Assembly (NCBI RefSeq): GCF_003987065.1
Contig: NZ_PIPY01000004.1
Coordinates: forward strand, 124,001-188,000
Direction: 5' to 3'
DNA from: Pseudidiomarina insulisalsae
Lineage (GTDB): Bacteria > Pseudomonadota > Gammaproteobacteria > Enterobacterales > Alteromonadaceae
Length of the DNA: 64,000 nt
Part shown: positions 29,486-49,157 of the stretch, piece by piece
How the letters are laid out: each line of letters begins with the position of its first letter
Numbering within the stretch: position 1 is the first letter of the stretch
Program-made: the position numbers and the translations under genes
The notes under the pieces: generated by a model
Told to the model about the DNA's origin: nothing
The model's database searches: none
The model's input: only the letters and a program-made list of their open reading frames with translations

Positions 29486-29508
29486 TGAAAGACACGATAT
29501 GTCACACA
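29486..29508. promoter_or_regulatory. Island operator copy 1, upstream of the 559-aa/MoxR/VWA operon
   Basis: A 9-5-9 interrupted palindrome: TGAAAGACA, five bases, TGTCACACA. A CATAAT hexamer (29515-29520) starts six bases after it. The ATG of the first gene is 58 bases downstream. The same 23-bp pattern occurs at 41150-41172 and 49135-49157, in front of the other operons of the island. Confidence 0.7.
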
Positions 29509-29566
29509 AGTGAGCATAATAAGTGATTGTTCCTGATGGTTAAGAGACTGGACATAGAGGACGATT

Positions 29567-31246
29567 ATGCAAGACAAGACGTATGGACTTCGAGTGGCGA
29601 GCAGTCATGATGAACACCTGACGATTAGCGACCCCCAGTTAGTTTGGTTAGAGGTGAGCGAATGTGAGCAATTGCAGTGCCTTGAACTCCAAAACCAGAA
29701 TGACGTTTCAGCCCCAAAGGCAGTGGCGACTCATGAGCGTCATCTGACAATCAACCGAGCGCCAAATCTACGTCGTATTAAAAATCCTCAGAATTTGCCA
29801 TTGGTCATCCACTTAGATGCACGCGGACGTTTAAAACCACTGCTAGTCGAGGGTCCCGTACATCACATCGACTTCTGTTGGGAAAAAGGTGAGTTTGGGA
29901 GTTCTCGCCGATATGAAACAGTCATGCTCCTGCCCGTTCAATCATTAAGCCAGTATCGACAGGAGGTTGAGCTTCTGTGCAAGGATGCACTACTGGTGCT
30001 TTATTCGCCTGAGTCGAGCAAGAGCCTTAAAGCCACAAGTCTTACAATTTTACAAATTGAGACCAATGCTGAAGTTGTCGTTACCGACCTGGCTGAAATA
30101 CAACAAATTCATATGAACAGTCGGGATAAACAGTTACCTGCACGGCTGCTGGCAACTCAATGCCCTAAACTTGAGCTGATAAATAAACTGGGTACCGAAC
30201 CTACGAAGGCATATGCAAAGATTAGCCGTTGTGGACGTAATCGGCTGAAATTCACAGGCGCTTGGTATCGGATAGCGTTGGCAGGATGCACCATTCGGCG
30301 ACTTTCTGTTGAAATGGCGCAAGCGCTTCATGTGGCGGGCGTTTGCCATATCGAGGAAGTACATGTTCCCAACACGATGCGAGTAGTTAACCAGGCAACC
30401 AATTGGTTTGCTGATGGCGTTATTCCTGATATCAACGAATCTACGTTGTCTGATCTCAAGCAGCGACTTAATGACCCATCGAGCGAACAACCGGATGTCG
30501 AGCTTGTTGAAACCTGCATGGCCGCAGTCCGCCGCTGCCGGCGTCCGAAATCGCGCTATTACGGAATTCAAATACTAAGTTTACTGGCTGAAAGTTACGA
30601 AAAGGGCATTCATCTTGATGAGTTATTTGAAATACGTCGTAACATGCTTCCGCCGCGCACTTCACATCCTTTTCCGGCTGATTTACATATTGAAGGCTGG
30701 CGCGCTGATGTTCGACTTTGGAACTACTTACGACGGGCTTCGCTCGCTGCCAATAAAAATGGACAGTTTGTCCGTATCAACAATTACTACCTTGAGCATT
30801 TTAGCGGCACCGACCAAAAAGGCGAGGCGATTTACGCGCTGATTCGTGAGTGTCTGGACCACCGTAGTGAAGAATTGCTCGAGTACGCACTAAAACAACT
30901 GAAACCGACATCGCCACAACACTCGATATTTATTGATATTTACTTTAACTGGGGCCAGCCGCTTATTATTAAAGGTATAAAACTCTTGTTGTTGGCCATA
31001 CCGCGCCTGGGCGCAAGTACTAAGACAATGGCGATTGAATATATTTTATTGAGTTCCGTTCCTGACCTTTTCCGAACTGCTGTAGACAAACTTATAGAAC
31101 AGGAGCCCTTTCTAACACGGAAGGTCGCGTTACGTCTTGCGAATCAGCACCCAAAAAGTAAAGCCGTATTTATTCACCTGGCTTTGTCGGGCCCGTCGGG
31201 TCATCGCGGTAAACAGCCATCAAGTAAGGAAGGTGCAACAGCATGA
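29567..31246 (+). CDS. Unknown protein with leucine-rich-like N-part and helical C-part
   Basis: A 559-residue protein of no family I can name. The first ~260 residues alternate short hydrophobic strands with polar turns (for example LVWLEVSECEQLQCLEL and LTINRAPNLRRI), giving a leucine-rich or beta-solenoid look. The last ~250 residues are helical, with HEAT-like periodicity. Such layouts often serve as recognition scaffolds. It has a GAGGAC ribosome site, and its stop overlaps the MoxR start by four bases, so it is the first member of a three-gene unit. The gene is accessory in character: a divergent, single-context protein at the head of an operator-controlled operon. Confidence 0.85.
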   Translation: MQDKTYGLRVASSHDEHLTISDPQLVWLEVSECEQLQCLELQNQNDVSAPKAVATHERHLTINRAPNLRRIKNPQNLPLVIHLDARGRLKPLLVEGPVHHIDFCWEKGEFGSSRRYETVMLLPVQSLSQYRQEVELLCKDALLVLYSPESSKSLKATSLTILQIETNAEVVVTDLAEIQQIHMNSRDKQLPARLLATQCPKLELINKLGTEPTKAYAKISRCGRNRLKFTGAWYRIALAGCTIRRLSVEMAQALHVAGVCHIEEVHVPNTMRVVNQATNWFADGVIPDINESTLSDLKQRLNDPSSEQPDVELVETCMAAVRRCRRPKSRYYGIQILSLLAESYEKGIHLDELFEIRRNMLPPRTSHPFPADLHIEGWRADVRLWNYLRRASLAANKNGQFVRINNYYLEHFSGTDQKGEAIYALIRECLDHRSEELLEYALKQLKPTSPQHSIFIDIYFNWGQPLIIKGIKLLLLAIPRLGASTKTMAIEYILLSSVPDLFRTAVDKLIEQEPFLTRKVALRLANQHPKSKAVFIHLALSGPSGHRGKQPSSKEGATA

Positions 31247-32379
31247 ACGATTTATATCCAAGCACTCCGCGCGACGTGCAAACGATTATTCGCGCGCAAT
31301 TAGAATTACTTTGGGAGCAACCTGAATTGGCACAAACAATTCCTCCGTTGATGCTGTGGGGTGCTCCAGGCGTAGGGAAGAGTACTGTAATTCGGGAGCT
31401 TTGCCAGAAACTGGGGATTGAATTTATTGACATTCGCCTGGCGCAACGCGAGCCGGTCGATCTCCGGGGCTTGCCGGTTCCTAAAGAAAATCATGTCGAG
31501 TGGCTGCTGGCAAGTGAATGGCCACGAGATCCAGATAGCCGCGGCATTATTCTGTTTGACGAGTTAAGTGCTGCCGATCGGACCTTACAGGCGGCGGCGT
31601 ACGAGATTATTCTGGATCGTCGTCTGGGTGATTTGTATACGCTACCGAAAGGCTGGTTAGTGATGGGAGCGGGTAACCGTATAGGTGATCGTGCAATAGC
31701 GCACAGTTTTTCAAGTGCACTGGCCAACCGTTTCTGCCACCTCACTCTTGAGCCTGACATTGAACAATGGTGTGTCTGGGCACGACAAAAAGGTATCGAC
31801 CCACTAATTATCGGCTTTTTAAAATTTGCGCCAGAGCATTTTTTCAACCTGACCGACACTACTGAGACGGACTACGGTTGGCCAAGTCCCCGCTCGTGGG
31901 AGCGAGCCGCACTGATGTATTCCCAGGCTCAACGCATGGATCTAAACAAGCAACAGCAACGCATCGTAATTAATGGCTTGATTGGTCCTGGCGCGGCAGC
32001 TGCATTCTTCGCCTACTGTGAGAGTACCGAAGATTTACCTGATGTGCCTGCCATGCTGCGCGGCGAAGTGCCCGTAGAAGTCCCCACAAGTAATGACACG
32101 CTTTATGCTTTTTGTACTTCAGTAAGTTTTCATCTTTGGCTTGCCAACAAGCGCAACTATCAAAAGCGGCTGGATATTCTGTTCAAGATTACCCGTCAAC
32201 TGAATTCAGATTTCGCCACCATGCTAATGCTGGATGTAATGCGTGATGACTCTTATAGCGGCGATGGGGAACGGTTGCATGAGCAACGTGCGGCCTTGAT
32301 TTTTGGCCATCCTGATTATGGTGCCTGGATCGAGCAACATGGCATGGAGTTTGGCTCGGTACTGGAAACTTTAGTATGA
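31243..32379 (+). CDS. MoxR-type AAA+ ATPase
   Basis: A 378-residue AAA+ protein. Walker A GAPGVGKST is at residues 40-48 and Walker B IILFDELS near 102-109, with sensor GAGNR at about 140-145. MoxR ATPases act as chaperone-like remodelers and are typically paired with a VWA-domain protein; here the next gene supplies it. Both boundaries are four-base ATGA overlaps, so the three proteins are probably made in fixed ratio and work together. Confidence 0.9.
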   Translation: MNDLYPSTPRDVQTIIRAQLELLWEQPELAQTIPPLMLWGAPGVGKSTVIRELCQKLGIEFIDIRLAQREPVDLRGLPVPKENHVEWLLASEWPRDPDSRGIILFDELSAADRTLQAAAYEIILDRRLGDLYTLPKGWLVMGAGNRIGDRAIAHSFSSALANRFCHLTLEPDIEQWCVWARQKGIDPLIIGFLKFAPEHFFNLTDTTETDYGWPSPRSWERAALMYSQAQRMDLNKQQQRIVINGLIGPGAAAAFFAYCESTEDLPDVPAMLRGEVPVEVPTSNDTLYAFCTSVSFHLWLANKRNYQKRLDILFKITRQLNSDFATMLMLDVMRDDSYSGDGERLHEQRAALIFGHPDYGAWIEQHGMEFGSVLETLV

Positions 32380-33518
32380 CTTCCCAAACACACAGAAATG
32401 TGACGATACATGAGCTTGAGTGTTTGTTACATCGGGATCGTAGTGCGCTGCTGTTACGCCAACCGTTTACGGCTGGGCTGGCCATGCGTCTGGCCATTGT
32501 AGTGGTGAACGGCAGTGAGGATAGTGCGCGGACGGATCCTCGTATAACCACAGCGGCTACGGATGGCCGCACCCTTTACTTTGATGCCGCATTCACAGCT
32601 GGACTTGATGCCCGCACCCGACAATTCGTGCTTTGCCACGAAGTTTGGCACTGTGTCATGGGCCACCTGCGACGACGGTTTGGACGTGACCATCAGCGCT
32701 GGAATCGTGCTATCGACTACGAAGTGAACGCTATCTGCGGCGACCTGCTTGGTTTTGTACCTGAAACGGCACTTCACAATGAAGAATGGAATCATTTAAG
32801 TGCTGAGGACATCTATGCGCTACTCAAAAAGAACAATGAACCAAAAGCGCTCAGCCTTTTAGGCACATTTGATCAGCACCTGCCTTTAGATCCGTTAGTT
32901 GCTCAACAATGGCGCGAAATGTTGGTGCAATCGATGAAAACAAGCGCCCATGCGGGAAGTTTGCCCGGTAGTTTGCGTCGACGGTTGAAAGCCGCAATAA
33001 CCCGAAGTATACCCTGGCAGCAATTATTGGCGCGCTTCGTACAGACTCAGGCAAGCGGCGAGCGTGAATGGTATCCACCCTCACGGCGTCATATACACCG
33101 AGGTTTATATTTGCCACGTCAGCGGATTAAGTTCATTGAGCTCACGATAGCAATCGATACCAGCGGTAGCTGTGCCCAGGATTTTGGTAAGTTCCTGGCG
33201 CAACTTAACTACCTGCTTAATAGCTACCAACGTTACGAGATTACAGTTTTGCAGTGCGATACTCGCATTGTGAATGTAGCAACTTACACGCCTGAGCGGC
33301 CTTTAAACGCGAACAACTTCGAATTTTCTGGCTTTGGCGGTACTCGTTTCCAACCTGTATTTGACTACGTGCAACACCATCCGACGGCCGCTCTTATTTA
33401 TTTCACGGACGGCTATGCGTGTGACCCGGTCAATAATGCTGATGTGCCAGTGTTATGGGTGCTCACGAGCGATGGGATGGAAGAAATGGACAGTGGTGAA
33501 TCTATAAGGATGAATTAG
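32376..33518 (+). CDS. DUF2201-type protein: metallopeptidase-like domain plus VWA domain
   Basis: A 380-residue protein. The N-terminal part holds a zinc-metallopeptidase motif, HEVWH at residues 88-92, followed by a third His and WNRAIDYEVNA, as in DUF2201 N-terminal domains. The C-terminal part is a von Willebrand A-like domain with the metal-ion site DTSGS at 261-265, the FGGTRFQP Thr region, and IYFTDG. It is the usual partner of MoxR ATPases. Peptidase activity is predicted from the motif only. The gene's end is followed by debris, and the present last residues (about 12) may not be original. Confidence 0.88.
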   Translation: MTSQTHRNVTIHELECLLHRDRSALLLRQPFTAGLAMRLAIVVVNGSEDSARTDPRITTAATDGRTLYFDAAFTAGLDARTRQFVLCHEVWHCVMGHLRRRFGRDHQRWNRAIDYEVNAICGDLLGFVPETALHNEEWNHLSAEDIYALLKKNNEPKALSLLGTFDQHLPLDPLVAQQWREMLVQSMKTSAHAGSLPGSLRRRLKAAITRSIPWQQLLARFVQTQASGEREWYPPSRRHIHRGLYLPRQRIKFIELTIAIDTSGSCAQDFGKFLAQLNYLLNSYQRYEITVLQCDTRIVNVATYTPERPLNANNFEFSGFGGTRFQPVFDYVQHHPTAALIYFTDGYACDPVNNADVPVLWVLTSDGMEEMDSGESIRMN

Positions 33519-33643: not shown

Positions 33644-33653
33644 ACAGCTCAAT

Positions 33654-33807: not shown

Positions 33808-34802
33808 TAGTGTCAACTATCCTGCCAGAGGGGGACAGGAAAACTAAAAAACCGGGCGTAGTGTTCATTTCCATGTAGCAAGCCCATTTCAACTAAATTT
33901 TTTTAGTAACTAGTTATATACCCAACGCTCTATGCTTAATTCTGTTTTCCTTCTTACTATTGTCGACTTAGGTGATCGGCGATTGGTTTAAACCATTCCA
34001 TAAACTCATCAAAGTTCTCGATTGGTATGTTACGAGGGTATTTCATTCCGCGAAACCGTGGTAACCCATTAACTAAACTATTGTTTGCATCTCTGATTTC
34101 TAAACTAGGTTTAAATGCCTTGATTTTATTGATATTAGCATTAGTTGACGGTGTATTGGCTAAGCAAATATTAAACAAGTTATTTTCGCGAGACTTGATA
34201 ATGAAATCAATTCCTGACACGTGACAAATAAAACCATATTCACCGTTGGCAAAGGTTGGAAAATAGCGAGAATCATACTCTCGACTATCACTTTCAAAAA
34301 CCAGGTAACCTAAGGTTCGCATTGACTCTCTTATGTAGTCAATAGTTGAGACCGTTCCAGCATGACGCAGATACTCTCGCTTCATTTCAGCGGCTCGACC
34401 ATCACCCGGTATGGGTGGGTCTAGGTCAAAATTCCCTTCATGACTGCCTTTAATACGGATATTTTCATGCCCGTGACCACGATTCAAGTTTGTAAGTTCT
34501 GAGTGGCCATAAACCCAGTTTATCAAAGTGGCTTCAACTGCTAATGCTTCAGCTTTTGTTTTATAACGGCCTATAACTATACATATCGGTTTATAACCGG
34601 ATTCAATTAACTCATTAATTTTATTATGCTTTGGGTGTTTAAGTTTTTGACGATTAGCAATTAACGTATCATACTCATTAAGATGGGCGTGAACACGTTG
34701 ATCTTGACCTTCTCCAACATAAAAAACAGACAAATCACGCGGATCAATTAGTTGATATACATAGTAACGAAGCATTGTAAATCTCCAAGTGTAGTGGTCA
34801 AC
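33808..34802. repeat. Direct repeat GTAGTG(G)TCAAC flanking the GIY-YIG gene
   Basis: GTAGTGTCAAC (starting at 33808) and GTAGTGGTCAAC (34791-34802) have the same orientation and bracket the GIY-YIG gene. The right copy continues into ACAAAACCCCGGACTCC, which resembles IS3-family terminal sequence. The pair may be IS ends or a duplication left by the insertion that brought the segment in. Confidence 0.35.
33957..34775 (-). CDS. GIY-YIG nuclease-domain protein
   Basis: A 272-residue protein. Its N-terminal ~110 residues form a GIY-YIG-type domain: YYVYQLIDP, then VFYVGEG, a run of basic residues, and an EATLINW helix with the metal-binding Glu. The following ~160 residues are unknown, with an aromatic-rich FICHVSGIDFIIK strand region that may recognise DNA. 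The segment is markedly AT-richer than its neighbours and lies beside transposase debris and a direct repeat, so it was probably inserted separately. It could be a homing-type or restriction-type nuclease. Confidence 0.7.
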   Translation of the reverse strand: MLRYYVYQLIDPRDLSVFYVGEGQDQRVHAHLNEYDTLIANRQKLKHPKHNKINELIESGYKPICIVIGRYKTKAEALAVEATLINWVYGHSELTNLNRGHGHENIRIKGSHEGNFDLDPPIPGDGRAAEMKREYLRHAGTVSTIDYIRESMRTLGYLVFESDSREYDSRYFPTFANGEYGFICHVSGIDFIIKSRENNLFNICLANTPSTNANINKIKAFKPSLEIRDANNSLVNGLPRFRGMKYPRNIPIENFDEFMEWFKPIADHLSRQ

Positions 34803-34829
34803 AAAACCCCGGACTCCTTTTTAGTTAAT

Positions 34830-37800
34830 TTATCCAACCCGCAACGTACTCCCGCCAACTCCACGCACCACATCAATGCGTTTCGAAATACGCAGTTTCA
34901 ATTCGCTGACGTGCGAAATGATACCTATGGTGCGGCCGCTCGCACGAAGGTTCGCCAGCACGTTGATGGCGAGGTCGAGAGCTTCGCTGTCCAGACTGCC
35001 AAACCCCTCGTCAATGAACAGGGTATCGATGCGGATGCCGCCGGAATAGCTCTGCACGACGTCTGACATGCCAAGGGCAAGGGCGAGTGCGGCCATAAAG
35101 CTCTCACCGCCGGACAAGGTATTTACTTCGCGCTCTTGGCCGGTAAAGGTGTCGTCGACCATCAGGTCGAGTCCGCCATGCTGGCGGCGATCTCCGGCAG
35201 TTTCACGGCGTACCAGGCGATAACGATTATTGGTCATTTGTTCCAACCGCACCGAGGCCTCGTGCAATACATCATCAAGCAGAACTGCCAACACGAAACG
35301 ATGCAGACTCATGCGTAATTCATTGTCTCCATTCAGTGTCTTTGCCAGCATTCCGATGACGCGGTATTCATGTTCTAGTTCCGCTGATTGTGTGACGAGC
35401 TTTTGGTATCCCTCGATCATGTTGCGTAGCTGTTCTTGCTTGCTGCGCATGCTTTGCAGAATATGGTCGACACTTGACTCATTCTGTTTCAATTCATCAA
35501 CTTTTGCGAGCAAGACGCTTAGGTCGGGTTTCGTCTGATCACCAATTGCTTGCTCATCCTGTTCAATGGCTGTGTTTACCTGAATGAGTTGTTCGCGGTG
35601 TTCGCTCACTTGTTGTTTGAGCTGAGCTTCAAGCTCGCTATCAAGTAGCGCTTCAGAAAATGCTTCACTGTCGATAAATTTTGACTCCACCAATTTCCCA
35701 CTCCAGGCTTTTTCGGCAGCCTGCAAACTCGCGCGAGCGGCTTCTTCTTCTTTTATACTTGTTTCATGAGCATTTTTTGCAGATGCCAACTGACTCTCAG
35801 CCTTTGCCTTCCGCTGAAGCGCTGACTCATGCTCGGTTTGTAATTGATCGATTTGCTGCCGCCTCGTGTTCCGTTGAGTTTCGATTTCGTCAACAGACAG
35901 CGTGCGTAAAGTTTTATCAGAATCGATTGTATCGAGACGCGACTCAAGTGCTTTAACAGCGGATTCAGCAGCATGTAATTCATCATTAAATTGTGTAGCT
36001 TGTTCGCGGTGTTTCTTTTCTTTCACCGTCAACTGTTCTAAACGTGTATTCATTTCAGCAAGGGCTTTTTTCTGTTGCTCTTGCTGCTTTTCCAGATCAG
36101 CGAGATTGGTCAAATCTTGTTGAATCGAATCAGCAGATTTTTTAGCTAGGTCACCAAGTTCCTGTAGGTGTGTCTTAAGCTGGTGCTGTGAACTCGCAAG
36201 TGTTGCTTCTGCCGCATTCACTTTTAAACGTAACTTTTCGAGTTTGCTGTTGCATTGTGTGACTTGAGCATCAGCTGTCTCTAGCTGTTCTTGGGTTACG
36301 AGTTGACCTTCTTGCGCCGAATGAGCAGGAGCAGGGTGTTCCTTACTGCCGCAAACAGGGCAGGGCTCACCGGGGTTAAGCTCATGTGCTAGTGAAATAG
36401 CTTGCTCTTGATGCCAACGAAGACGCAATTGTTGACTTGCAATACGTGCATCGGCCAAGGTTTGTTTTGCTTCCTCTAAAGGGGTTTTTGCTTCGCGGAC
36501 TGCACCTTCTTCAGTTTCGATACGTCGTTGCAGCGAGTCGCGCTGCTGTAAACGCTGGAGTTGCGATTGCAGTTGTTCGCGCTTGGCTTCCGTGTTTTGG
36601 TGTTGCTGCACTGCTTTATTTAATTCGGTAAGTTCAACTTTGGTACCGGTAATCGCGTCAGTGGTGTGTTCAAGCGCGGTAGCGATCGCCGCTTTTTTTT
36701 CCTGTGCACTATTACGAGCATGCGTTTTTAACTCGAGCTCTTGCAGTGTCGCGTTGACATTCTCCAGGTCTTCTAGCTGTTTTGCGAAGCGGTCTATGGC
36801 AAGTTTCAGTTTATCGATCTGGGCTGGAGTATCTTTGTGCTTCGCCAACTCAGCTATTGCCTGTTGCTGGACTAGCTGCGCTTGTTCATTCTGCTCCTTT
36901 GCTTGTTGCAAAGCTTTCTCACGGGCGCTTAGGGCTTCACGGGCACGACTAAATTCTAACCATTCAGGCTGAATTCGCTTCGCGGCATCATGTTCATTGA
37001 GTTGTTTCTCAGCGGCTGCGACTGCTTCAGCTTGTTCACTGAGTGCTGTTAGTTTTTGTTTGCTGGCAGCCAGGCTCTCGAAGCGCTTAGTAAGCTCTTC
37101 TGCTTGCGTGAGATCTTTTTGGGCTTGTTCGCGTGTTGCTTTTAACTGATTTAGTTCCTTTAGCGTTTCTGCAATCGGCTCTTCGTCTGCTTTGAGCTTC
37201 TCTTGTGCCAACTCAATCGACTGATAACCCGCATTTTCGAGCTGAGTCTTTAACTGATTTTTGAGTGCATGGTATTCATTGTTGATCCGTTGCGCGCGCT
37301 CACGCACTGCTTCTTCAATACGACGGAACTCTGCGGTGTTGAAGAGACTGGCAAGAATAGATTCACGATCTTCGGATTTTGCTGTCAGCAATTCGCGAAA
37401 ACGCCCCTGTGGCAGAACTACAACCTGGCGAAACTGTGCATCGTTAAGACCAATAAGCTCATTTACTCGCTTGGTGACGTCAGTAACTGAGCTCTCCAGA
37501 AGTTCGGTTTCCCACTCTTCTGGCGAGCCATTCTGAGCAATTATTTTGTAGAGCTGTGCTGAGGCTTGGCGTTTTGCAAACCCATCGCCTCGTTTTGCTA
37601 AGGTGGTTTGGGTTGGCTTGCGATCCACTCGATAGATGGCATTACCCAACGCAAAAATAAATTTCACTTCGGTTTCGGTGGCGTCGTTCGCATGATGACA
37701 GCGCATTGATTCGCCTTTGCGATCACCGGTTGAGCTGCCATACAGCGCAAAATTCATGGCATCAAGCAGAGTGGTTTTACCCGCGCCCGTGGGACCATTA

Positions 37801-37898: not shown

Positions 37899-37908
37899 CG
37901 GCAGTTCC

Positions 37909-40175: not shown

Positions 40176-41109
40176 GGGCATGCTCCTCTTCAAGTTCTTC
40201 TGTGCGTTGCACCGCACAATGCAAGCGTAGCCATTGTCGGTAGACACGAAAATGCTGCTCAGCCTTTTGCTGCTGTTTTTCGTAAGTGGCCAGCTCTTTC
40301 TCCCTGCGGATTAAAGATTTAAGAGTATTTTCTATGCCCACATCATGCAAATGATAACGATGGATGGTCGCATCAATTGAACTACGCAAGTTAGCTACTT
40401 CATTCTCAGTCTGCATGAACGCGCGGTGTAGCTCTAAGACTTTCGGATCTTTTTTACTTCGACTAAATCTTGACCGAGCTTCGGCCCGCAGGGTGATCAG
40501 CTTGGATTCATATTGACGCACAGCTTCGCGTTGTTGCATCGCTGTGCGGATATCTTTTTGCATTGTCCCGTTAAACCGTACTTGACGTGAGGCATGATTG
40601 GTTGCGGACTCCGCTTTTATTGCCGCCTGGTGCAACTGCTCTAATTTGCCGTAATGTCGAAAAAAGCCGATTTGGGTGGCTTTGGAATGAAGATTTAATT
40701 CAGTCATTTGTTTAGTCGCGGTATCGAGAGATTCGCGCAACTGTGTAAGGTCGACGTGGCTTAAGTCGGAGCAATGATAATTAAGTCGCCATTCGCAGTA
40801 TTTTTCTATTGCAGTGGTTGCGTCGGTGACGATAGCAAACCTTTGCCAGTTGGGGGCTGAACTTTTTTCACGGGGCTCACATAACCAAATATTCGAGCCT
40901 AGAGCTGTGCGCTCCGCAAGGTACATTTCAGTTTCGTCTTGAAACCAAAGTTGTACTTTTTCCAATGTCGTTGCACCTTTGACACGCATCACCCAGGTTA
41001 GCGCGTGCATCATCAAGTCAATATTGGGAGCTCGCTGGGCGTCAGTGTAATCATAATGTACGGGAGCCACCTGAGGACTGTGCTGAATGACGAGATATAT
41101 CGGCGACAT
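40168..41109 (-). CDS. Unknown coiled-coil protein, first gene of the WYL-sbcDC operon
   Basis: A 313-residue protein without a recognised family. The N-terminal ~125 residues look globular with several Trp residues. From about 130 to 300 it is strongly helical and charged, with coiled-coil character (LREAVRQYESK-type heptads), ending in an acidic EELEEEHAHE tail. AAGGAA precedes the ATG, and the stop overlaps the WYL start by eight bases. Its position suggests an accessory subunit of the SbcCD or WYL functions; that is inference. Confidence 0.8.
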   Translation of the reverse strand: MSPIYLVIQHSPQVAPVHYDYTDAQRAPNIDLMMHALTWVMRVKGATTLEKVQLWFQDETEMYLAERTALGSNIWLCEPREKSSAPNWQRFAIVTDATTAIEKYCEWRLNYHCSDLSHVDLTQLRESLDTATKQMTELNLHSKATQIGFFRHYGKLEQLHQAAIKAESATNHASRQVRFNGTMQKDIRTAMQQREAVRQYESKLITLRAEARSRFSRSKKDPKVLELHRAFMQTENEVANLRSSIDATIHRYHLHDVGIENTLKSLIRREKELATYEKQQQKAEQHFRVYRQWLRLHCAVQRTEELEEEHAHE

Positions 41110-41149
41110 GTGCTGTTCCTTTTTTAAACTGTCCCTATCCTAATTAGTT

Positions 41150-41172
41150 TGCATGACACATTATGTCGCACA
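41150..41172. promoter_or_regulatory. Island operator copy 2, in the divergent promoter region
   Basis: TGCATGACA, five bases, TGTCGCACA: a 9-5-9 interrupted palindrome with 7 of 9 arm positions matched. It sits between divergent operons. On the minus side TAGGAT (41137-41142) begins seven bases away. On the plus side TACGCT (41180-41185) also begins exactly seven bases away. One bound dimer could therefore cover both -35 regions. Confidence 0.75.
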
Positions 41173-41222
41173 ATGCGTGTACGCTTACCAAACACAAAAA
41201 AAACGAAAGTGGGGATCGAACT

Positions 41223-42140
41223 ATGTCATTGACTATACAAGAGAAGCGCCAGGGATGCTATTGGGGCCAATGTGTCGGTGATGCTTTGGGGAGCATTGTC
41301 GAATTCAAAACCAAAGAGACAATCGCTAAAGCATATCCAAATGGTATTACAGAGCTTATAGCAAGCCCTGTATTTCCCACCGCAGAGCGTGGTCAATTGA
41401 CAGATGATAGTGAGATGGCCATTGCTCTGATGACTTCAATGCATGACAGCGGGGGAAATTTTATCGGTTACGATCCTGATCGTGCCCTGAAGAATTACCG
41501 CGACTGGTACGATAGTGCCCCTATTGATTGCGGCTTCACCATATCACGTGGTATCACCGGCGATCCGAACCCTTCAAGCGAGGCCAACGGCGCGTTGATG
41601 CGTGTCAGCGCTTTGGCACTACGTTCCGACTCAGTCGACGAAACAAGCGCAGTGAACTGGGCGCGCCAAGATTCGGAGCTAACACATCCGAATCCAGTTT
41701 GTGTCCAGGCAAATCAACTGTTTGTAGCTCTAATTCGTCACATGTTGGTACATGATGAAACGTTTTCAGGAGAACAGTTGCATGAAGCTGCACAGCACTT
41801 GGTTTCAACATATCAGCTGAGTAGCCTCAGTGAGCTCGTCATGCAAGCGAAGCACCAGAATGTCTCCGATTTCTATATCAATATGGGCTGGGTGCGCCTA
41901 GCGCTGCAGAACGCCTTGTTTCATTTATTCAACGATACTCCCTGGCGAGAGGCGGTACACACGACCGTGATACAGGGGGGCGATACAGATACCAACGCAG
42001 CCATTGTCGGCGCGCTGCTAGGGGCGCGATCTGGAGCAAAGGAGATTCCAGAGCGGTGGCTACACGATGTAAAAAGCGCACGTCCTGCAAGACGTCCTGA
42101 TTGGCTTCACGCTTATACGGGAGCGCAGCTGATCAGCTAA
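41223..42140 (+). CDS. ADP-ribosylglycohydrolase (DraG/ARH family)
   Basis: About 305 residues. Both metal-binding motifs are intact: TDDSEM at residues 60-65 and QGGDTDTNAAIVGALLG with Asp254 and Asp256. Together they hold the binuclear Mg site that removes ADP-ribose from targets. I chose ATG 41223; a frame opening 60 bases upstream would start inside the operator. In the island it may reverse an ADP-ribosylation mark or process an ADP-ribose signal, but no ADP-ribosyltransferase was found in the window. Confidence 0.9.
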   Translation: MSLTIQEKRQGCYWGQCVGDALGSIVEFKTKETIAKAYPNGITELIASPVFPTAERGQLTDDSEMAIALMTSMHDSGGNFIGYDPDRALKNYRDWYDSAPIDCGFTISRGITGDPNPSSEANGALMRVSALALRSDSVDETSAVNWARQDSELTHPNPVCVQANQLFVALIRHMLVHDETFSGEQLHEAAQHLVSTYQLSSLSELVMQAKHQNVSDFYINMGWVRLALQNALFHLFNDTPWREAVHTTVIQGGDTDTNAAIVGALLGARSGAKEIPERWLHDVKSARPARRPDWLHAYTGAQLIS

Positions 42141-42170
42141 AGCTCTGACAAAATCACGAGGAGAGCAACC

Positions 42171-42509
42171 ATGGAACTCGGAGGATTAATTCAGCAGTTG
42201 GCGATCGCCGCAGTAATGCTTTGGCTGGGTTTTAAAGTCTTAAAGTGGGTTTTTATTTTTATAGCCGGGATCATTTACATAAATGGCTATATGTTTACGA
42301 ATCACCCTATATGGTCCCTGATTTGTTATGGCTTTTTTATAACCCCTGGACATCCACTGGCAAGTTACATATGCGGACAGCTAGCGCTCATCATTGCGTT
42401 CAGTTACAAACAGGATAAATCAGGAACGCTGAAAGCTATGGGCCTGGGTGCTTTGTTGGGCGGATGGCTAGCGAAGCGCAATAGCAATAAATTACGAATA
42501 AAGGATTAA
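42171..42509 (+). CDS. Small membrane protein of unknown function
   Basis: A 112-residue protein with hydrophobic segments at about 7-45 (two helices close together), 48-65 and 68-85, and a short basic C-terminus (KRNSNKLRIKD). GAGGAGAG precedes the ATG. It lies 30 bases after the glycohydrolase gene in the same direction. Small membrane proteins often act as effectors or anchors in defence operons, but nothing in the sequence shows that here. Confidence 0.65.
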   Translation: MELGGLIQQLAIAAVMLWLGFKVLKWVFIFIAGIIYINGYMFTNHPIWSLICYGFFITPGHPLASYICGQLALIIAFSYKQDKSGTLKAMGLGALLGGWLAKRNSNKLRIKD

Positions 42510-42512
42510 ATC

Positions 42513-42617
42513 ATGAGTAAAAGTTGGATAGTAAAGTTATCAGCAAATGCGACGAAATGTGATCTTGAGCTTGTCTCGAGGAGAGCTCGGGCTTACCACT
42601 GTTTGGTGACCTGCTAG
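42513..42617 (+). CDS. Possible 34-residue small protein
   Basis: A short frame (MSKSWIVKLSANATKCDLEL and on, ending CLVTC) with AAAGGA 7 bases before its ATG, three bases after the preceding stop. It could be a real small protein or the leftover 5' end of a shortened gene. Length alone gives no support. Confidence 0.25.
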   Translation: MSKSWIVKLSANATKCDLELVSRRARAYHCLVTC

Positions 42618-42663
42618 CCGTGAAGTTTATAAATGATGACTTAATTTAACGGGAGAATCTCAT

Positions 42664-43644
42664 ATGAATCAGTTATCGTCGCTTTTTCAAACTCATATTG
42701 CCGATGGCATTGCACAAACCTATCCTGATTTGAGCAACGCCGCTGAATTTATTACCAACTCACATCTCGACCCTAATAATTTTGCAATGCCAATGACCGA
42801 AAGTTCTGCGTCCGAGATTCGAAACTTGTTAGCGCGAGGCAGTTATTCAACGGTTAACGACAAACTCAAGTTTGAGCCTACGCAAACAATCCGGGGTGTG
42901 ATTCGCGTTATGGTGCGTACTCATTTGAATCGACAGGGTGTTGGATTTGTCAGTCGCAATTCGGCAAATAAAACCTTGGCCAAGCGGGTTTTACTTCCTT
43001 TCGAGGGTGAGTTTGATTACGAACGGATGATTGATCATAACTGCTACATTGAAAGCTGGCAACGTGCTGCGGATACTAATCCTGCTGACTATGATGAAAT
43101 CGATCGCCGCGCTATTGAAGGCCTGAAAAACCTCCGCGGTGGTCAACGCACCAATGCAGCCGTAGCTAAACATTTTTTGGGCAATGATAACTGGGCAAAA
43201 GTGCTTACCGGTATCTACAGCGGATTACTTTATTTACATGAGCACTATGAATTTAATCCGGACACTTTATGGGCCGATATGAATGAGTGTCTCGGCAACG
43301 CCCAAGCGGCTAAAAAACTCGTACGCAATGTTCAGTCCGGTATTCATCAATATGGAACAGCGCTTGCAGGTAGCTTTCTGGCTGACTTAGGGCATCCGGG
43401 CTTTGTGAAACCTGATACACACGTGATTAGCGGTGTTGCCGCTATGCTTGGTAAAGACAACGTTTCTCAAGAAGAGGCGGTACATTTCGTCTACGAGCTT
43501 GCCGAAAAATATTCGGTATCGCCGCGCGCAATCGATAAAATTTTCTATATTGGCTGTTCGGGTAAGCTTTACTTGTATGATTTAGAGATAAATAACTCGG
43601 GGCACTTTAAAGCCAAATTTCTTAGCCAGTTACGCCAAATATAA
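42664..43644 (+). CDS. HhH-GPD-like DNA glycosylase-related protein
   Basis: A 326-residue protein. The C-terminal half has FLADLGHPGFVKPDTHV with Asp251 in the position of the helix-hairpin-helix glycosylase catalytic Asp. A VDK/LFWLIGSG-like ending (IDKIFYIGCSGKLYLYD) is seen in a group of HhH-GPD-related proteins. The N-terminal half is not recognised. The family call is by pattern memory and moderate. A ribosome site GGGAGA precedes ATG. The nuclease-helicase gene follows after nine bases. It may recognise modified or damaged bases (inference). Confidence 0.6.
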   Translation: MNQLSSLFQTHIADGIAQTYPDLSNAAEFITNSHLDPNNFAMPMTESSASEIRNLLARGSYSTVNDKLKFEPTQTIRGVIRVMVRTHLNRQGVGFVSRNSANKTLAKRVLLPFEGEFDYERMIDHNCYIESWQRAADTNPADYDEIDRRAIEGLKNLRGGQRTNAAVAKHFLGNDNWAKVLTGIYSGLLYLHEHYEFNPDTLWADMNECLGNAQAAKKLVRNVQSGIHQYGTALAGSFLADLGHPGFVKPDTHVISGVAAMLGKDNVSQEEAVHFVYELAEKYSVSPRAIDKIFYIGCSGKLYLYDLEINNSGHFKAKFLSQLRQI

Positions 43645-43653
43645 GGAAACGCC

Positions 43654-46600
43654 ATGCGCCAACTCAACGGACAGACTTTTTACTCACCTTCAGATTTAAC
43701 TGAGTTCCACGACAGTCCGTTCGCAAGTTGGTGCAAGCTTTGTCATCGTGCGACAGGGGGAGAGTTTCCGACACCTGATCCTGAAGATGCGTTCTTAAAA
43801 ATGCTACAAGACGCCGGCGAAGCGCATGAGCTCGGGTTGGTCAAGCAGTTGCATGAAGAAGGGCGAAATGTTGTTGATGTGAAGAAGCTGTGCCCTGGGA
43901 GTGACTTTCTAAAGCAACATCAGGAAACCGTCCGGTTAATGAAAGAAGGAGCCGAGATCATTTTCCAGGCAGCGCTTATGGATGAGCCGTTTGCCGGTTA
44001 CGCTGATTTTGTGGTGCGCGTCAACACACCCAGTGATCTTGGCGAACATAGTTATGAAGTATGGGACACCAAGTTATCGAAAACCGCGAAAGTTACGCAT
44101 CTGCTGCAGTTGGTTGCCTATGCACAGATGCTTGAAAAAATTCAGGGGCATATGCCCAATACCGTTACCGTTGTACTGGGAAGTGGTGCGTTTGAAAGCT
44201 ATCCGACAGCCGAATACTTGCCCTATTTTTCTGTAACAAAAGAGAAGTTTATTGCGGCAGCCACTAACTTTGACCAGGACGCAATGCCTGATCCGTTTGA
44301 ATCCAGGGAGTACGGCTCCTGGAGTACATTTGCCGAAGCACTCTTAGCTGAGCGGCGGCATTTGTCGTTAGTGGCAAATATTCGCCGCAGTCAAATCGTT
44401 AAATTAAATAGTGCAGGTATTCTAACGATAGATGAGCTCGCTGAGCTAAGTGATCTGTCTCAGGTGAAAATTCCAAATGCAACGCTCGAAAAGCTGCGCG
44501 AGCAAGCACAAGTGCAAATTGCGACGGAACAAGCCGGCACGCCGCAATACCGTTTGCGCTCACCGAAGCCCAATGAACCAGAGCTCTTCTCTATGCTTGC
44601 ACCTTTTAGCTCCGGTGATATCTATTTTGACCTTGAGGGGGATCCATTAACTGAAGGTAGCCTTGAGTTTTTGTGGGGCATGACCGTATTTGATGATAAC
44701 GGCAAGCAAGATTTTATTGCCTATTGGGCGCATAACCAGGAGGAAGAAAAGCAAGCGCTTGCCAAGTTTTTTGAGCTCACCCTGGCTCGCTGGCAGCGTT
44801 ACCCGCAGATGCGAGTTTATCATTACGCACCGTATGAAATGACCGCACTAAAACGCCTTGTGGCGCGCTATGGCATCTATGAAAATGAACTCGATGAAAT
44901 GTTACGCGCCGAGCTGTTTGTCGATTTGTATAAAGTGGTTAAGAGTACGCTTATTATTGTCCAGCCGTCGTATTCAATTAAAAAGGTCGAGCTGTTTTAC
45001 CGCGATGCTCGCGATACCGAGATTGGTCTTGGCGGTGACGCAGTTGTAGCGTACCAGCAATGGACAGAGCTGGGCGATAAAACAATTCTTGATGCCATTG
45101 AGCTATACAATAAAGATGACTGCGACTCGACCTATGAGTTGGCGCAGTGGTTGCGGGGTTTACAAGCTATGCATCGTAGTGAAATAGCACAAGCAGCACA
45201 TGATGTGGCAGATAAAGAAGGAGCTGCTGAACGCGAAAAGAAGCCTGATGACAATCTCGCGACAAAACAAGCGCTGCAAAAATTAGCCGACGCGCAGAGT
45301 GACGAGCTAGAGCGGTATGCAATCGAGACATTGATGTATCTTATCGATTTCCACGCGCGCGAGGATAAACCAAAATGGTGGCAATTTTTTGAATGGCTTA
45401 ACGCGTTTGACGAAGAGTTGATTGAAGAACGCAACGTTATTATTGATTGCAATGTACTTGATCGATCAGACGTTTCATTACGGATTCGTTGTAACACTGA
45501 GCAAGAAATGTCGTTGAGTATGGGCGCTGGTTTTGCATTAAAAATGCCGGAATTCCCTGAGCTAAGTGGTGCGGTTAAGGGAAAGGTTTCAGAGCTATTC
45601 GATGACGAGACGTTTGAGCTAAAGATGACTGGGAATGGTGCCGAACAAGCTCCCGATCAGTTCACTTTGGTAAGTCAGGAGTTTGTGCCAACCGGGCCAC
45701 TGAAAAAAAGCTTAGTCGAACTTGCAGAGCAAGTGGTGAGACAAAAAGCATTACCTGATGACGTAGCGATTGAGATTATCAAGCGCGCTGCGCCTCGTTT
45801 TAGCAAAGCACTGGACACCCTGAGTGCGAATCGTTGCTCACAGAACGAACGAGTTGGACAAATAGCGCAGCTGGTGGAGCATCTCGACCGCAGCTATTTG
45901 ACGGTTCAAGGGCCACCGGGTACTGGCAAAACGTACACGGCGGCACGGGTGATTGGGCATTTAATGCACAACTATCCCCAGCTGGCCATTGGCATTACCA
46001 GTAATAGCCATAAAGCGCTGAATAACCTTTTAAAGAAGGTTGCGGAGTATTGCGCTGAGCAAGGCATCGCCTGCACATTTTATACGAGTAAGTTAGATGA
46101 GGAGCTAGAGGCTCTTGGTGTCGACTCCTACGAACAAAATACCAAAGCGGTGAGATTTGTTAGACCCAATGTAGTAATGGGCGGCACTGCATGGGTATTT
46201 TCCCGTAAAGATATGGCCAACACCCTCGACTATTTGTTCATTGATGAAGCGGGGCAAGTTGCTTTAGCCAATGTAATTGCGATGGCGCAAAGCACGCGTA
46301 ACATTGTGCTCCTTGGCGATCAAATGCAACTTGGCCAACCAACGCAGGCGACACATCCTTTGGACTCAGGTCTATCAGCGCTCGATTATCTGATGAAGCA
46401 TGAGCAAGTTGTACCTGAAGACAAAGGCGTACTGTTAAATCGCTCGTATCGTATGCATCACGATGTATTGGGTTTTATTAGTAGCATGGTGTATCAAGGC
46501 CGTCTGGAAGCCGATGATGCCAATAAAAACCAACGTATTGACGTTACTTCTAATGACACTATCAAAAAGAAATCTGGCATCGAATTCCATCCGGTTGAGC

Positions 46601-47046
46601 ACGATGGTAATACCGTGGCCAGCGACGAAGAAGCGGACTACATACAGCAGCTCTATCAGCAGCTGTTGCAGGCGCATTACACCGACAAAAATGACAAACA
46701 ACAACTTATAACGAGCGACGCTATTTTAATTGTGACACCTTATAATTTACAGGTGCAGCGGCTCAAACAACGCTTGCCGAAAGGCGCACGGGTAGGAACG
46801 GTTGACAAGTTTCAGGGGCAGGAAGCGCCGGTGGTTATTTTTAGTTTTTGCTCAAGCTCGCCGGATGAGAGTCCGCGCGGACTCGATTTCTTATTTGATA
46901 TTCGTCGCATCAATGTCGCGGTTTCTCGCGCGCAGGCGTTGGCGATAGTAGTGGGTTCACCCCGTTTGTTAGATGTCTGTGCGACATCCATCCCGCTGAT
47001 GAAAAAGGCTTCGTTGGTAGCCGAGTTAGGGCGGGTAGGGCGCTGA
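43654..47046 (+). CDS. RecB-like nuclease / DEDD exonuclease / UPF1-like SF1 helicase fusion (TM0106 type)
   Basis: An 1130-residue protein with three modules. Residues about 1-200 form a RecB-like nuclease: GYADFVV, WDTKLSK near 137 and the QLVAYAQ motif. Residues about 315-500 form a predicted RNase H-like exonuclease: FDLEGDP near 324 and DDCDSTYEL near 487. Residues about 730-1125 form a superfamily 1 helicase of the UPF1/Dna2 type: GPPGTGKTY near 753, FIDEAGQ near 862, GDQMQLGQP, VDKFQGQE and NVAVSRA. Such proteins process DNA or RNA ends, and related ones occur in defence islands. AAGGAAACG precedes the ATG. Confidence 0.9.
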   Translation: MRQLNGQTFYSPSDLTEFHDSPFASWCKLCHRATGGEFPTPDPEDAFLKMLQDAGEAHELGLVKQLHEEGRNVVDVKKLCPGSDFLKQHQETVRLMKEGAEIIFQAALMDEPFAGYADFVVRVNTPSDLGEHSYEVWDTKLSKTAKVTHLLQLVAYAQMLEKIQGHMPNTVTVVLGSGAFESYPTAEYLPYFSVTKEKFIAAATNFDQDAMPDPFESREYGSWSTFAEALLAERRHLSLVANIRRSQIVKLNSAGILTIDELAELSDLSQVKIPNATLEKLREQAQVQIATEQAGTPQYRLRSPKPNEPELFSMLAPFSSGDIYFDLEGDPLTEGSLEFLWGMTVFDDNGKQDFIAYWAHNQEEEKQALAKFFELTLARWQRYPQMRVYHYAPYEMTALKRLVARYGIYENELDEMLRAELFVDLYKVVKSTLIIVQPSYSIKKVELFYRDARDTEIGLGGDAVVAYQQWTELGDKTILDAIELYNKDDCDSTYELAQWLRGLQAMHRSEIAQAAHDVADKEGAAEREKKPDDNLATKQALQKLADAQSDELERYAIETLMYLIDFHAREDKPKWWQFFEWLNAFDEELIEERNVIIDCNVLDRSDVSLRIRCNTEQEMSLSMGAGFALKMPEFPELSGAVKGKVSELFDDETFELKMTGNGAEQAPDQFTLVSQEFVPTGPLKKSLVELAEQVVRQKALPDDVAIEIIKRAAPRFSKALDTLSANRCSQNERVGQIAQLVEHLDRSYLTVQGPPGTGKTYTAARVIGHLMHNYPQLAIGITSNSHKALNNLLKKVAEYCAEQGIACTFYTSKLDEELEALGVDSYEQNTKAVRFVRPNVVMGGTAWVFSRKDMANTLDYLFIDEAGQVALANVIAMAQSTRNIVLLGDQMQLGQPTQATHPLDSGLSALDYLMKHEQVVPEDKGVLLNRSYRMHHDVLGFISSMVYQGRLEADDANKNQRIDVTSNDTIKKKSGIEFHPVEHDGNTVASDEEADYIQQLYQQLLQAHYTDKNDKQQLITSDAILIVTPYNLQVQRLKQRLPKGARVGTVDKFQGQEAPVVIFSFCSSSPDESPRGLDFLFDIRRINVAVSRAQALAIVVGSPRLLDVCATSIPLMKKASLVAELGRVGR

Positions 47047-47067
47047 CCTATCAGTCGTGCGCCTTCG

Positions 47068-49092
47068 TTAAGCTACCGTGGCTAAAAAACCGATGGCGTT
47101 ATTATGGCGATGATCAAGGAGCGTTGGCAGTCGTGCCATATCGCCATGCAAGCGGCATTGGCGTAGTGCTTGTATCAGCTGCTGCGGCGTTGCACTGCAA
47201 TGGCTTGGTAATGCAATAGGGGTTAAGTTGTTGGCTTTAGCAAAGCGGTTGGCGAATGGCTGCAATTGGTGGTGATTCCAGGGCTTAAGCTCGAGCGTGA
47301 CGTCACAGGCATCGCTCAGCAAACGATAGTTCTGCAAACATTGGCTACTGCTGACGGTCATCACCAGCGGTGGAGCGAAGTTGCGCACGCGCTCTGCGAA
47401 CCACCGATAAAAGATTTCTGGATTAGTGAGCATGCGCTCTGTCGCTATGAGCACTTGGTCGATTTCATCAAAAACTATCATTTCGTTACGGCGCGCAGCA
47501 TGTTCGAACATGCTTTCGATCGCTGCGGTAAATTCCATGCCAGGGATACTCATTAAATCAGTCGCATGAAAGAAGCGTGTGCTTTGGTTCCGTTCGAAAC
47601 AGAGGTAACGAGCCAGTGCGGATTTACCGGTGCCGCTAACACCTTGCAAAAGAACACGGATGTTGCGAGCGTGCTGACACTCGTTAGCAATGTATTCAAG
47701 TTTCAACTGACCGCTCGCGTGACAAGAACTCAGGTCAAAGCTACCGAGCTCATTACTATACCAATTCGGTGTAGACGGAAAATATAAATCGAGCATCTTT
47801 TCAGTGGTGAGCCCGCTACTTTTGGTACGCTCCGCTAATTTTTTGATTCGCTCAACTTCGGCGGGTGTACTGATGCGTTGCGAAGCGATAGCATGAATTC
47901 GTTCGCTACTGACAGCGTGCTCAGCTAGGGCGCTGTTCATCATTTTCACGCGATTACGATAGTCAAGAGAGGGCATTTTCAACACGTAATCGAAACGGCG
48001 CAAAAAGGACATATCAAACTCGTGAACTGTATTACATACCCAAAACGTGGTTGTTTTACGCTGCTCTAATGTTTGATTGATCCAGCCTTTACGCTTGTTC
48101 TCGTTTTTGCGTTCGTTAAGAACGTCCTCGACCTCATCGAAGAGAATATGACTTGTAGGCAAGCAGGCAAGCATATTGGCTAAGCGCACGTATTCGCCGA
48201 GTCGGTAGCTTTGATTATTTTCTTTCTTGGAATCTGGGCAAATTACCGGCACATCGTAAAGTTTTCCACCTACCGATGCCGATAACGCTTTGGCTAACTC
48301 GGTTTTACCCGAGCCTGGTGCGCCGACAAATAGTACCGAAAGCGGGTTGCCATCATTCGTGGCACTCTCGATACATGCTTGCAATAACTGCAACTCATCA
48401 CCGAGGTGCTGATAGTCGGCAATACTCAGTTTTGCTGGCGTACTCTGCACCAGTACTCCCGCCAGCATATCATCGTCAATAGAGCGACACGTCATGATGC
48501 AATGTGAAATAGCCTCGTGCATTCGGAAGCGGTCGCAGGGGGAAGTCGCAATTGAGAATACTGACGGTCCGGTTAGGTGCATTTGCACTATTGTCGAATC
48601 ATCGCCACTAAGTTTATCGAACAGTGAGTGATCGATTCCGATAATCTGCGAGATAATGTCTGCCTGTGACTCGTCGCAAAAGGTACGATCAATGAACTCA
48701 AGCATCGCGCTTATCAAGCGTGAGTTTGAACAGAAAAATGCCATCACTATGAGGCGATATTCGTTTTCATCTAAGTCGAGTTGCTTCTGTAATGCCCGCG
48801 CACCCAATACTTCAGGGATTCGAGGCGCCCAATTGACCGTACTGTCGTTGCCAAACTCCACGAGCTTGTCAAGTAGGTCCTTCTGAAAACCGTAGAGGCG
48901 GACTAAATGCTGCACGCGCATACGCAAAGCCTCTTTAGTTTCGTCGTTACCACTGAGATGAAAGCATCGGGCCAACCAGAAAAAGCTCAGCGGCAACCAT
49001 TCATGCTCAAAACCGTGACGACGTGCTATTGAAGTATCAATAGGCAGTTCAGGCAGAGCTACAGACAGAGCGAAGCGAGGATAAGTAGACAT
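47068..49092 (-). CDS. Protein with two AAA+ ATPase domains
   Basis: About 674 residues. An unrecognised N-terminal ~220 residues precede two AAA+ domains. The first has Walker A GAPGSGKTE near residue 256 and Walker B HILFDEVED near 316. The second has GVSGTGKSA near 484 and IVFDEIDQ near 530. The layout recalls Cdc48/ClpA-like double-ring remodelers, but sequence similarity is only general. I chose ATG 49092, which follows AAAGGGAAC; a longer frame to 49215 would cover its own operator. It converges on the nuclease-helicase gene, with 21 bases between stops. Confidence 0.85.
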   Translation of the reverse strand: MSTYPRFALSVALPELPIDTSIARRHGFEHEWLPLSFFWLARCFHLSGNDETKEALRMRVQHLVRLYGFQKDLLDKLVEFGNDSTVNWAPRIPEVLGARALQKQLDLDENEYRLIVMAFFCSNSRLISAMLEFIDRTFCDESQADIISQIIGIDHSLFDKLSGDDSTIVQMHLTGPSVFSIATSPCDRFRMHEAISHCIMTCRSIDDDMLAGVLVQSTPAKLSIADYQHLGDELQLLQACIESATNDGNPLSVLFVGAPGSGKTELAKALSASVGGKLYDVPVICPDSKKENNQSYRLGEYVRLANMLACLPTSHILFDEVEDVLNERKNENKRKGWINQTLEQRKTTTFWVCNTVHEFDMSFLRRFDYVLKMPSLDYRNRVKMMNSALAEHAVSSERIHAIASQRISTPAEVERIKKLAERTKSSGLTTEKMLDLYFPSTPNWYSNELGSFDLSSCHASGQLKLEYIANECQHARNIRVLLQGVSGTGKSALARYLCFERNQSTRFFHATDLMSIPGMEFTAAIESMFEHAARRNEMIVFDEIDQVLIATERMLTNPEIFYRWFAERVRNFAPPLVMTVSSSQCLQNYRLLSDACDVTLELKPWNHHQLQPFANRFAKANNLTPIALPSHCSATPQQLIQALRQCRLHGDMARLPTLLDHRHNNAIGFLATVA

Positions 49093-49134
49093 AGCGTTCC
49101 CTTTCATATTGCGATTGGTGCATCCTATACAGCC

Positions 49135-49157
49135 TGTGTGACACAATACGTCAGGCA
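49135..49157. promoter_or_regulatory. Island operator copy 3, upstream of the double AAA+ gene
   Basis: TGTGTGACA, five bases, CGTCAGGCA: the same 9-5-9 pattern as copies 1 and 2. On the minus strand TAGGAT (49122-49127) begins exactly seven bases after it, as at copy 2. The ATG is 43 bases downstream. Confidence 0.7.

Follow-up and report, generated by a model that had tools for sequence, protein, structure and literature searches.

The locus considered here, a 64,000-nt stretch of Pseudidiomarina insulisalsae (contig NZ_PIPY01000004.1, positions 124,001 to 188,000; hereafter the window), raises the question of whether an island of nuclease and ATPase genes, divided among several transcription units, is commanded from one DNA element, and by which protein. 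Three copies of an interrupted palindrome, called boxes 1 to 3, lie at the promoters of these units. We propose, with a probability of about 0.6, that boxes 1 to 3 are one box bound by the WYL-family regulator encoded in the island itself (39063-40175), that they define an autoregulated regulon of at least four promoters, and that the regulator is an activator of the DriD/PafBC group for which single-stranded DNA (ssDNA) is the likeliest trigger. That the four promoters belong to one regulon under the island WYL protein, with binding as a prediction, is well supported by the comparisons described below.

Three boxes at four island promoters

A first-pass annotation, made from the letters of the window alone, had described three 23-bp sites sharing a 9-5-9 palindrome, each 6-7 nt from a -10-like hexamer. 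The coordinates and sequences of the sites proved exact, and the distances to the four hexamers it named measure 6, 7, 7 and 7 nt. Each box has three mismatches to TGTGTGACA-N5-TGTCACACA. Because this consensus was fitted to the sites, we searched de novo for any 9-5-9 palindrome, with up to three mismatches, in nine non-coding stretches, 2009 nt in all, within the island and at its edges. A single consensus, TGTGTGACA, was common to three of the nine stretches, and it lies at boxes 1 to 3, so that the palindrome was recovered as the sole one shared by three stretches. Among 1000 first-order Markov shuffles, 883 reached one stretch, 117 reached two and none reached three.

The box is also rare. 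The whole-genome scan that the annotation had proposed returned four places within three mismatches of the 23-bp pattern in 2.56 Mb, namely the three boxes and a single further place, C1:103578, while the backward control gave none. That further place (C1:103578-103600, or L019:10580) holds a perfect family box between a leftward gene, recC-like by sequence reading, and a phosphatase-like gene, with TAGCCT 9 nt on toward the former. A matrix built independently from 20 boxes of relatives, all from other species, ranked box 2 first in the window (score 17.5) and box 1 fourth (12.1), with 0.1 and 0.9 chance positions expected per 64 kb as estimated from 40 Markov sequences. When the window was scanned with matrix and -10 element together, the four promoters came out in rows 1, 3, 5 and 8. 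A candidate further box, TGCGTCACGCTCTGTCGCG, which the annotation did not contain, equals box 2 in matrix score (17.5; window rank 2) and may be a chance match. An origin as an uptake sequence or abundant repeat was rejected, as TGTGCGACA and TGTGTGACA each occur three times in 118 kb of own sequence on both strands. CRP half-sites stand 6 bp apart; a CRP site was set aside on this spacing, which is 9 bp here.

The box holds a fixed place within its promoters. In WYL-bearing loci the mean -10 score is highest at a distance of 8-9 nt downstream of the 19-bp core of the box (34 rows of box and direction, these being boxes with an open reading frame (ORF) start downstream, some counted in both directions), and none of 2000 random rotations was as high. 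At the four island promoters the gap from core to -10 is 8, 9, 9 and 9 nt, and the hexamers at the -35 position match TTGACA in 0-1 of six letters at a spacer of 17 and in at most three of six at any spacer and gap tried. The first-pass annotation had read the sites as operators covering -35 regions. The overlap with -35 and the fixed spacing stand; however, the conserved unit is the 19-bp core (CGAC-N7-GTCG in relatives) rather than 23 bp. The fixed 8-9 nt to the -10 element together with the missing -35 points to a DriD-like activator site more than to an operator that does no more than block -35.

The box and its regulator family in relatives

Searches of plasmids turned up loci in which a WYL gene adjoins a homologue of the double AAA+ gene, and at three of them (L038, L039 and L040) TGCGACA-N5-TGTCGCA, or a near form of it, stands just before the AAA+ gene. 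A search with six aligned AAA+ proteins confirmed 199 loci in named genomes; the best 80 of these and five plasmid loci make up a set of 85. The 45.5 kb around the AAA+ starts contain 10 boxes with 0-1 mismatch to TGYGACAN5TGTCRCA (3 of them in the plasmid loci of first sight), versus 5 in the 1.42 Mb elsewhere. With up to two mismatches, 15 of the 22 loci that have a WYL gene within 6 kb show a box at the AAA+ start, versus 4 of the 60 that have none at that distance (three truncated loci were dropped; the 15 include the three plasmid loci in which the motif was first noticed, and 3 of the 60, L036, L041 and L095, have a WYL gene farther off). The corresponding Fisher p of 4e-8 is optimistic because related loci are treated as independent. 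At the same threshold, 33 of 49 boxes fall in the 25 WYL-bearing loci (512 kb) and 16 in the other 60 (955 kb). The linkage of the core box to a WYL gene at the AAA+ promoter supports a common regulon, and the conservation whose absence the first-pass annotation would have taken as a refutation is found for the core, in distant relatives that carry a WYL gene.

The box is tied to the same protein family independently of the island, as six loci of the genus show. A profile from an alignment of 20 such WYL regulators (A2) matches regulators in 22 of the 26 genus genomes; 17 of the 26 hold a box free of mismatches (TRYGACAN5TGTCRYA). Twenty perfect boxes were read in 16 genus loci: 6 lie upstream of a regulator and 1 between recC and the phosphatase-like gene, the others within ORFs. 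The six upstream boxes are 21-59 nt from an A2-profile regulator (G000, G396, G397, G405, G406 and G411), and five of the six regulators are without a WYL domain. Farther afield, 339 class genomes were sampled and 29 gammaproteobacterial A2-profile loci taken from them; six of these loci hold a total of 7 boxes at 0-1 mismatch, against 0.05 expected from shuffles. The 23-bp pattern itself matches mostly TGCGACA-N5-TGTCGCA in the 26 genus genomes, several times within coding sequence, and the genus therefore offers no usable evidence on whether the island sites are conserved. Many genus genomes encode a regulator of about 180-200 amino acids (aa) that comprises the winged helix-turn-helix (wHTH) and WCX parts of the profile with no WYL domain between them. 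In G406 the protein is full-length, at 329 aa, and a box of this kind lies upstream. Loss of the WYL sensor domain would make a DriD-like factor independent of ligand.

The island WYL protein belongs to this family by several comparisons. It scores 21.6 bits against Pfam WYL (cut-off 21.8) and 25 bits in the genome search, has a PADLOC WYL match and is itself placed in A2, where Arg227 is invariant in 20 of 20 rows. The A2 profile finds DriD and fused PafBC entries at E values of 6.6e-20 to 1.5e-19, mycobacterial PafC at 4.1e-12 and its partner at 1.8e-8, and BrxR/CapW entries at 2.6e-6 to 9.2e-5; it aligns WYL and WCX (profile positions 155-331) to DriD, in keeping with a wHTH-WYL-WCX architecture. 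With only the one window sequence as query, no WYL structure was matched. Foldseek with an AlphaFold model placed DriD first (4.6e-12), then PafBC, then BrxR/CapW (4.1e-6 and weaker). The best match of the protein in 394 sampled genomes of the order is 34% identical and comes from the same genus (G383), where it is an orphan with no island and no box in the fetched stretch. Plasmids gave two distant matches and viral contigs no relative.

The variant half-site of the island goes with a variant recognition helix, RTIIRDL, which has Ile at position 45. The island arms read AAAGACA, TGTGACA, CATGACA, TGCGACA, TGTGACA and CCTGACG, that is, T four times, A once and C once at base 3. Loci with only Gln/Glu45 regulators gave 30 boxes at 0-1 mismatch under a pattern that put no constraint on base 3, and of their 60 half-sites 59 have C there; some loci overlap, so that duplicates enter the counts. 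Residue 45 is Gln in 66, Glu in 14 and another residue in 6 of 86 regulator sequences, duplicates included. One of the exceptions, with His45, has a perfect palindrome TGAGACA-N5-TGTCTCA at a double-AAA+ gene (L043:9270); the other four either lack a clean box of their own or have a Gln/Glu regulator in the same locus. Residue 45 appears to vary together with base 3 of the half-site, a post hoc observation that rests on two exceptions and is what direct contact would predict.

Layout of the island

The features are collected below. The G+C content in 2-kb blocks is 45-49% over 30-50 kb of the window versus 51-58% at 20-30 kb and 52-55% at 50-56 kb, which fits an acquired island; the 64-kb window has no tRNA gene.

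Table. Boxes, -10-like hexamers and genes of the island, in window coordinates.
Feature	Position	Strand	Remarks
Box 1 (TGAAAGACACGATATGTCACACA)	29486-29508		upstream of 559-aa/MoxR/VWA unit
-10-like CATAAT, promoter P1	29515-29520	+	operon 1; 6 nt from 23-mer edge, 8 nt from 19-bp core
Operon 1	29567-33518	+	559-aa protein, MoxR-like AAA ATPase, DUF2201 metallopeptidase/VWA protein
MoxR-like AAA ATPase	31243-32379	+	operon 1
DUF2201 metallopeptidase/VWA protein	32376-33518	+	operon 1
Operon 2-	33957-41109	-	313-aa protein, WYL, SbcD-like, SbcC-like, GIY-YIG nuclease; putative operon, from spacing
GIY-YIG nuclease	33957-34775	-	operon 2-
SbcC-like	34830-37940	-	operon 2-
SbcD-like	37909-39066	-	operon 2-
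WYL-family regulator, 370 aa	39063-40175	-	wHTH-WYL-WCX; proposed box-binding protein
313-aa protein	40168-41109	-	operon 2-; overlaps WYL gene start
-10-like TAGGAT, promoter P2-	41137-41142	-	313-aa/WYL/SbcD/SbcC unit; 7 nt from 23-mer edge, 9 nt from core
Box 2 (TGCATGACACATTATGTCGCACA)	41150-41172		common to two divergent promoters
-10-like TACGCT, promoter P2+	41180-41185	+	ADP-ribosylglycohydrolase unit; 7 nt from 23-mer edge, 9 nt from core
Operon 2+	41223-47046	+	ADP-ribosylglycohydrolase, 112 aa, 326 aa, nuclease-helicase; putative operon, from spacing
ADP-ribosylglycohydrolase	41223-42140	+	operon 2+
TM0106-family RecB-like nuclease/SF1 helicase	43654-47046	+	operon 2+
Double AAA+ ATPase	47068-49092	-	start 49092 preferred over 49215
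-10-like TAGGAT, promoter P3-	49122-49127	-	double AAA+ gene; 7 nt from 23-mer edge, 9 nt from core
Box 3 (TGTGTGACACAATACGTCAGGCA)	49135-49157		upstream of double AAA+ gene; one good arm, one poor
Candidate further box (TGCGTCACGCTCTGTCGCG)	49768-49786	+	TATGAA 9 nt on; upstream of small ORF at ~49873

Two gene starts bear on the boxes. Box 2 overlaps the mechanically called start at 41163, the real one being probably 41223, and box 3 falls within the mechanical ORF 47068-49215, whose real start is probably 49092. Neither the 559-aa nor the 313-aa protein has a Pfam match, and the latter has no homologue in plasmids or in 368 other genomes of the class at the thresholds used. The nuclease-helicase is widespread, with 170 plasmid records, and cannot define the system. 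PADLOC gives partial matches to LmuB (SbcC), MkoA (helicase), IetA (AAA+) and WYL; no complete known system was seen among these matches, the PADLOC system rules not having been run. At an Arsukibacterium locus (L075), a homologue with 53% identity to the metallophosphatase gene before box 1 (28264-29169) lies immediately upstream of the AAA+ gene, and hence the metallophosphatase gene may belong to the island.

Competing explanations and known regulators

The possibility that the shared palindromes are a coincidence, or the mark of an unrelated regulator or terminator, is hardly credible. The sites are short and degenerate, and 13 of the 20 perfect genus boxes lie inside ORFs (C12:118007 and C12:159251 of this genome among them) and look like chance matches, so that little can be built on a perfect box by itself. 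Against coincidence stand the rarity of the box in the genome, its linkage to WYL genes at AAA+ starts, the peak in the -10 gap and the failure of every shuffle to reach three stretches. It is more conceivable, although still improbable, that boxes 1 and 2 are real and box 3 is a chance look-alike, which would leave the double AAA+ gene outside the regulon. Box 3 is weak and would not stand out alone: it scores 7.4 with the independent matrix (rank 9), at which 8.8 chance positions are expected per 64 kb, and its right arm is degenerate. Yet its left arm is perfect, its -10 element lies at the standard 9 nt, it takes part in the three-way match, and it is precisely at the AAA+ promoter that relatives have the box.

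A question of a different kind is which protein the boxes serve. This genome encodes a second family regulator at C1:80971-81510 (L158:8956-9540, minus strand), a WYL-less relative with wHTH and WCX parts that matches the A2 profile and whose own promoter bears a perfect box; it lies on another contig than the island. That the island boxes are served mainly by this chromosomal protein rather than by the island WYL protein seems very improbable to us, since it has Gln45 and a TGCGACA-N5-TGTCGCA box, whereas the island arms are mostly of the TGTGACA type that goes with Ile45, and since elsewhere the box goes with the WYL gene of the same locus. The alternative that we take most seriously, although we consider it unlikely, keeps the same regulon and the same protein and makes the latter a repressor of the BrxR/CapW type, a WYL dimer that blocks the promoters and is released from them by a ligand. 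BrxR and CapW repress defence operons, and BrxR binds 11-5-11 and 10-5-10 palindromes, one of which, in Acinetobacter, overlaps -35 (PMC9122601, PMC9122589, PMC9122588). An autoregulating regulator encoded by the island would fit this as well, and a repressor with the same geometry means that geometry alone leaves the sign of regulation unfixed. On the other hand, the operator position varies among the known repressors, being between promoter and brxR in E. fergusonii, over -35 in Acinetobacter (PMC9122601, PMC9122589) and over -10 for CapW (PMC9122588), while here the distance to -10 is fixed across proteobacteria and -35 is poor; moreover, BrxR and CapW come well below DriD and fused PafBC in both sequence profile and fold.

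Several further observations weigh against an activator of the DriD/PafBC group acting from the island WYL protein. The full-length Foldseek alignment to DriD (8tp8) has low TM-scores, 0.38-0.46, and about 13% identity, and the AlphaFold model is only fair (pLDDT 79, pTM 0.52). Seven of the 22 WYL-bearing AAA+ loci have no box at up to two mismatches, and 23 of the 29 gammaproteobacterial A2-profile loci have none at 0-1 mismatch within flanks of about 1.5 kb. In addition, the gene set is not a conserved unit: the 559-aa/MoxR/VWA genes occur in 1 of the 85 AAA+ loci, the nuclease-helicase and the glycohydrolase in 2 each, and SbcC/SbcD have no match at 1e-6 across the 85. The single WYL-bound regulon proposed by the first-pass annotation is supported by the rarity of the sites and by the core conserved at the AAA+ promoter; box 3 is weak on its own, and the relatives found do not keep the set of operons.

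If the island WYL protein is indeed an activator of its own regulon, a dimer would sit over the dead -35, at a fixed 8-9 nt from -10, and would recruit RNA polymerase as DriD does. The WYL/WCX core would hold the regulator inactive until a ligand binds, most likely ssDNA arising from phage attack or damage. The output would be a burst of the regulator, SbcCD, the nuclease-helicase, the ADP-ribosylglycohydrolase, the MoxR/VWA pair and the double AAA+ ATPase. Given that the 313-aa/WYL/SbcDC unit is itself a target, induction would reinforce itself, and the presence in the regulon of products that make or process ssDNA (SbcCD, RecB-like nuclease-helicase) could also feed back. More tentatively, with odds somewhat short of even, a DriD-type ssDNA-triggered activator may have been recruited by mobile islands as an alarm that fires four promoters at once, with drift of the half-site from TGCGACA to TGTGACA, through the change of Gln/Glu45 to Ile, insulating it from the family member of the host. 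The idea of ssDNA sensing is not wholly new, because a review raises ssDNA-sensing WYL regulation of a Vibrio cholerae defence operon (PMC12409362). Among the matches listed in the open-licence literature, neither the box in defence islands nor the gene set is described. If true, our proposal would place direct activation on an ssDNA signal as a second logic beside BrxR/CapW repression; the promoter signature of box, 8-9 nt and -10 would allow a computer search for such regulons across proteobacteria, and the pairing of residue 45 with base 3 would amount to a simple, testable recognition code.

The closest counterpart of the island layout lies on a Sphaerotilus sulfidivorans plasmid (L038), the only one of the 85 AAA+ loci with the 559-aa/MoxR/VWA genes, their order kept, beside WYL and AAA+. 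There, after a BREX type 2 cluster, WYL, double AAA+, Sir2, dual-specificity phosphatase, 559-aa-like, MoxR and VWA genes follow in one run (L038:18229-28712). Like the island, this cluster brings WYL, double AAA+, 559-aa-like, MoxR and VWA together and has a perfect box before AAA+; unlike the island, its genes point in one direction and include Sir2 and the phosphatase, and the plasmid stretch has no SbcCD or ADP-ribosylglycohydrolase match. With BrxR and CapW our system shares a WYL regulator of a defence-type island, sites in its own promoter (box 2 precedes the WYL-containing unit) and, for BrxR, the 5-bp spacer; it differs from them in that they are repressors with variable operator position and a weaker sequence and fold match. 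The mycobacterial WYL activators SiwR and PafBC act at the -26 region with ssDNA as ligand, SiwR through a 19-bp palindrome upstream of -10 (PMC10693628, PMC11804915). PafBC, however, is a heterodimer that does not bind DNA without polymerase and has other targets in another phylum, whereas the island holds one WYL gene and the genome one Pfam WYL match, so that a heterodimer of paralogues is not seen here. Our first idea, a PafBC-like -26 element, was narrowed to DriD on reading the DriD consensus.

That consensus, ATACGAC(X)7GTCGTAT, is given in the DriD study, along with a position over -35 at one constant distance from -10, -35 matches of 1-2 in 6 and a bidirectional promoter at driD (PMC12340889). 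In our alignment of its three printed promoters, G falls at -14 in every one with a gap of 9 and with no other gap from 7 to 10, the conserved G-14 being taken from that study; against TACGACN7GTCGTA the printed sites show 3, 1 and 5 mismatches, that of bapE being poor and tied with another position. At L172, which encodes the nearest homologue of DriD among those found (89% identity across the stretch compared), a box, TGCGACAGAAACGGTCGTA, precedes the regulator gene, and GACAAT lies 7 nt away on the divergent side. DriD and the boxes of relatives (TGCGACA-N5-TGTCGCA) thus have the same CGAC-N7-GTCG core, of which the island boxes are a GAC-N7-GTC variant, mostly with T before GAC. DriD further resembles the island regulator in the wHTH-WYL-WCX order, in a site over a poor -35 at a constant distance from -10 (9 nt in the aligned printed promoters, 8-9 nt here) and in a bidirectional promoter at its own locus. 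The half-sites differ, TACGACA for DriD and mostly TGTGACA in the island, whose recognition helix has Ile where relatives have Gln/Glu. Finally, DriD of Caulobacter crescentus controls the chromosomal DNA-damage genes didA, bapE, recJ and dnaG (PMC12340889), whereas the island regulator sits in, and would control, an island of nucleases and ATPases.

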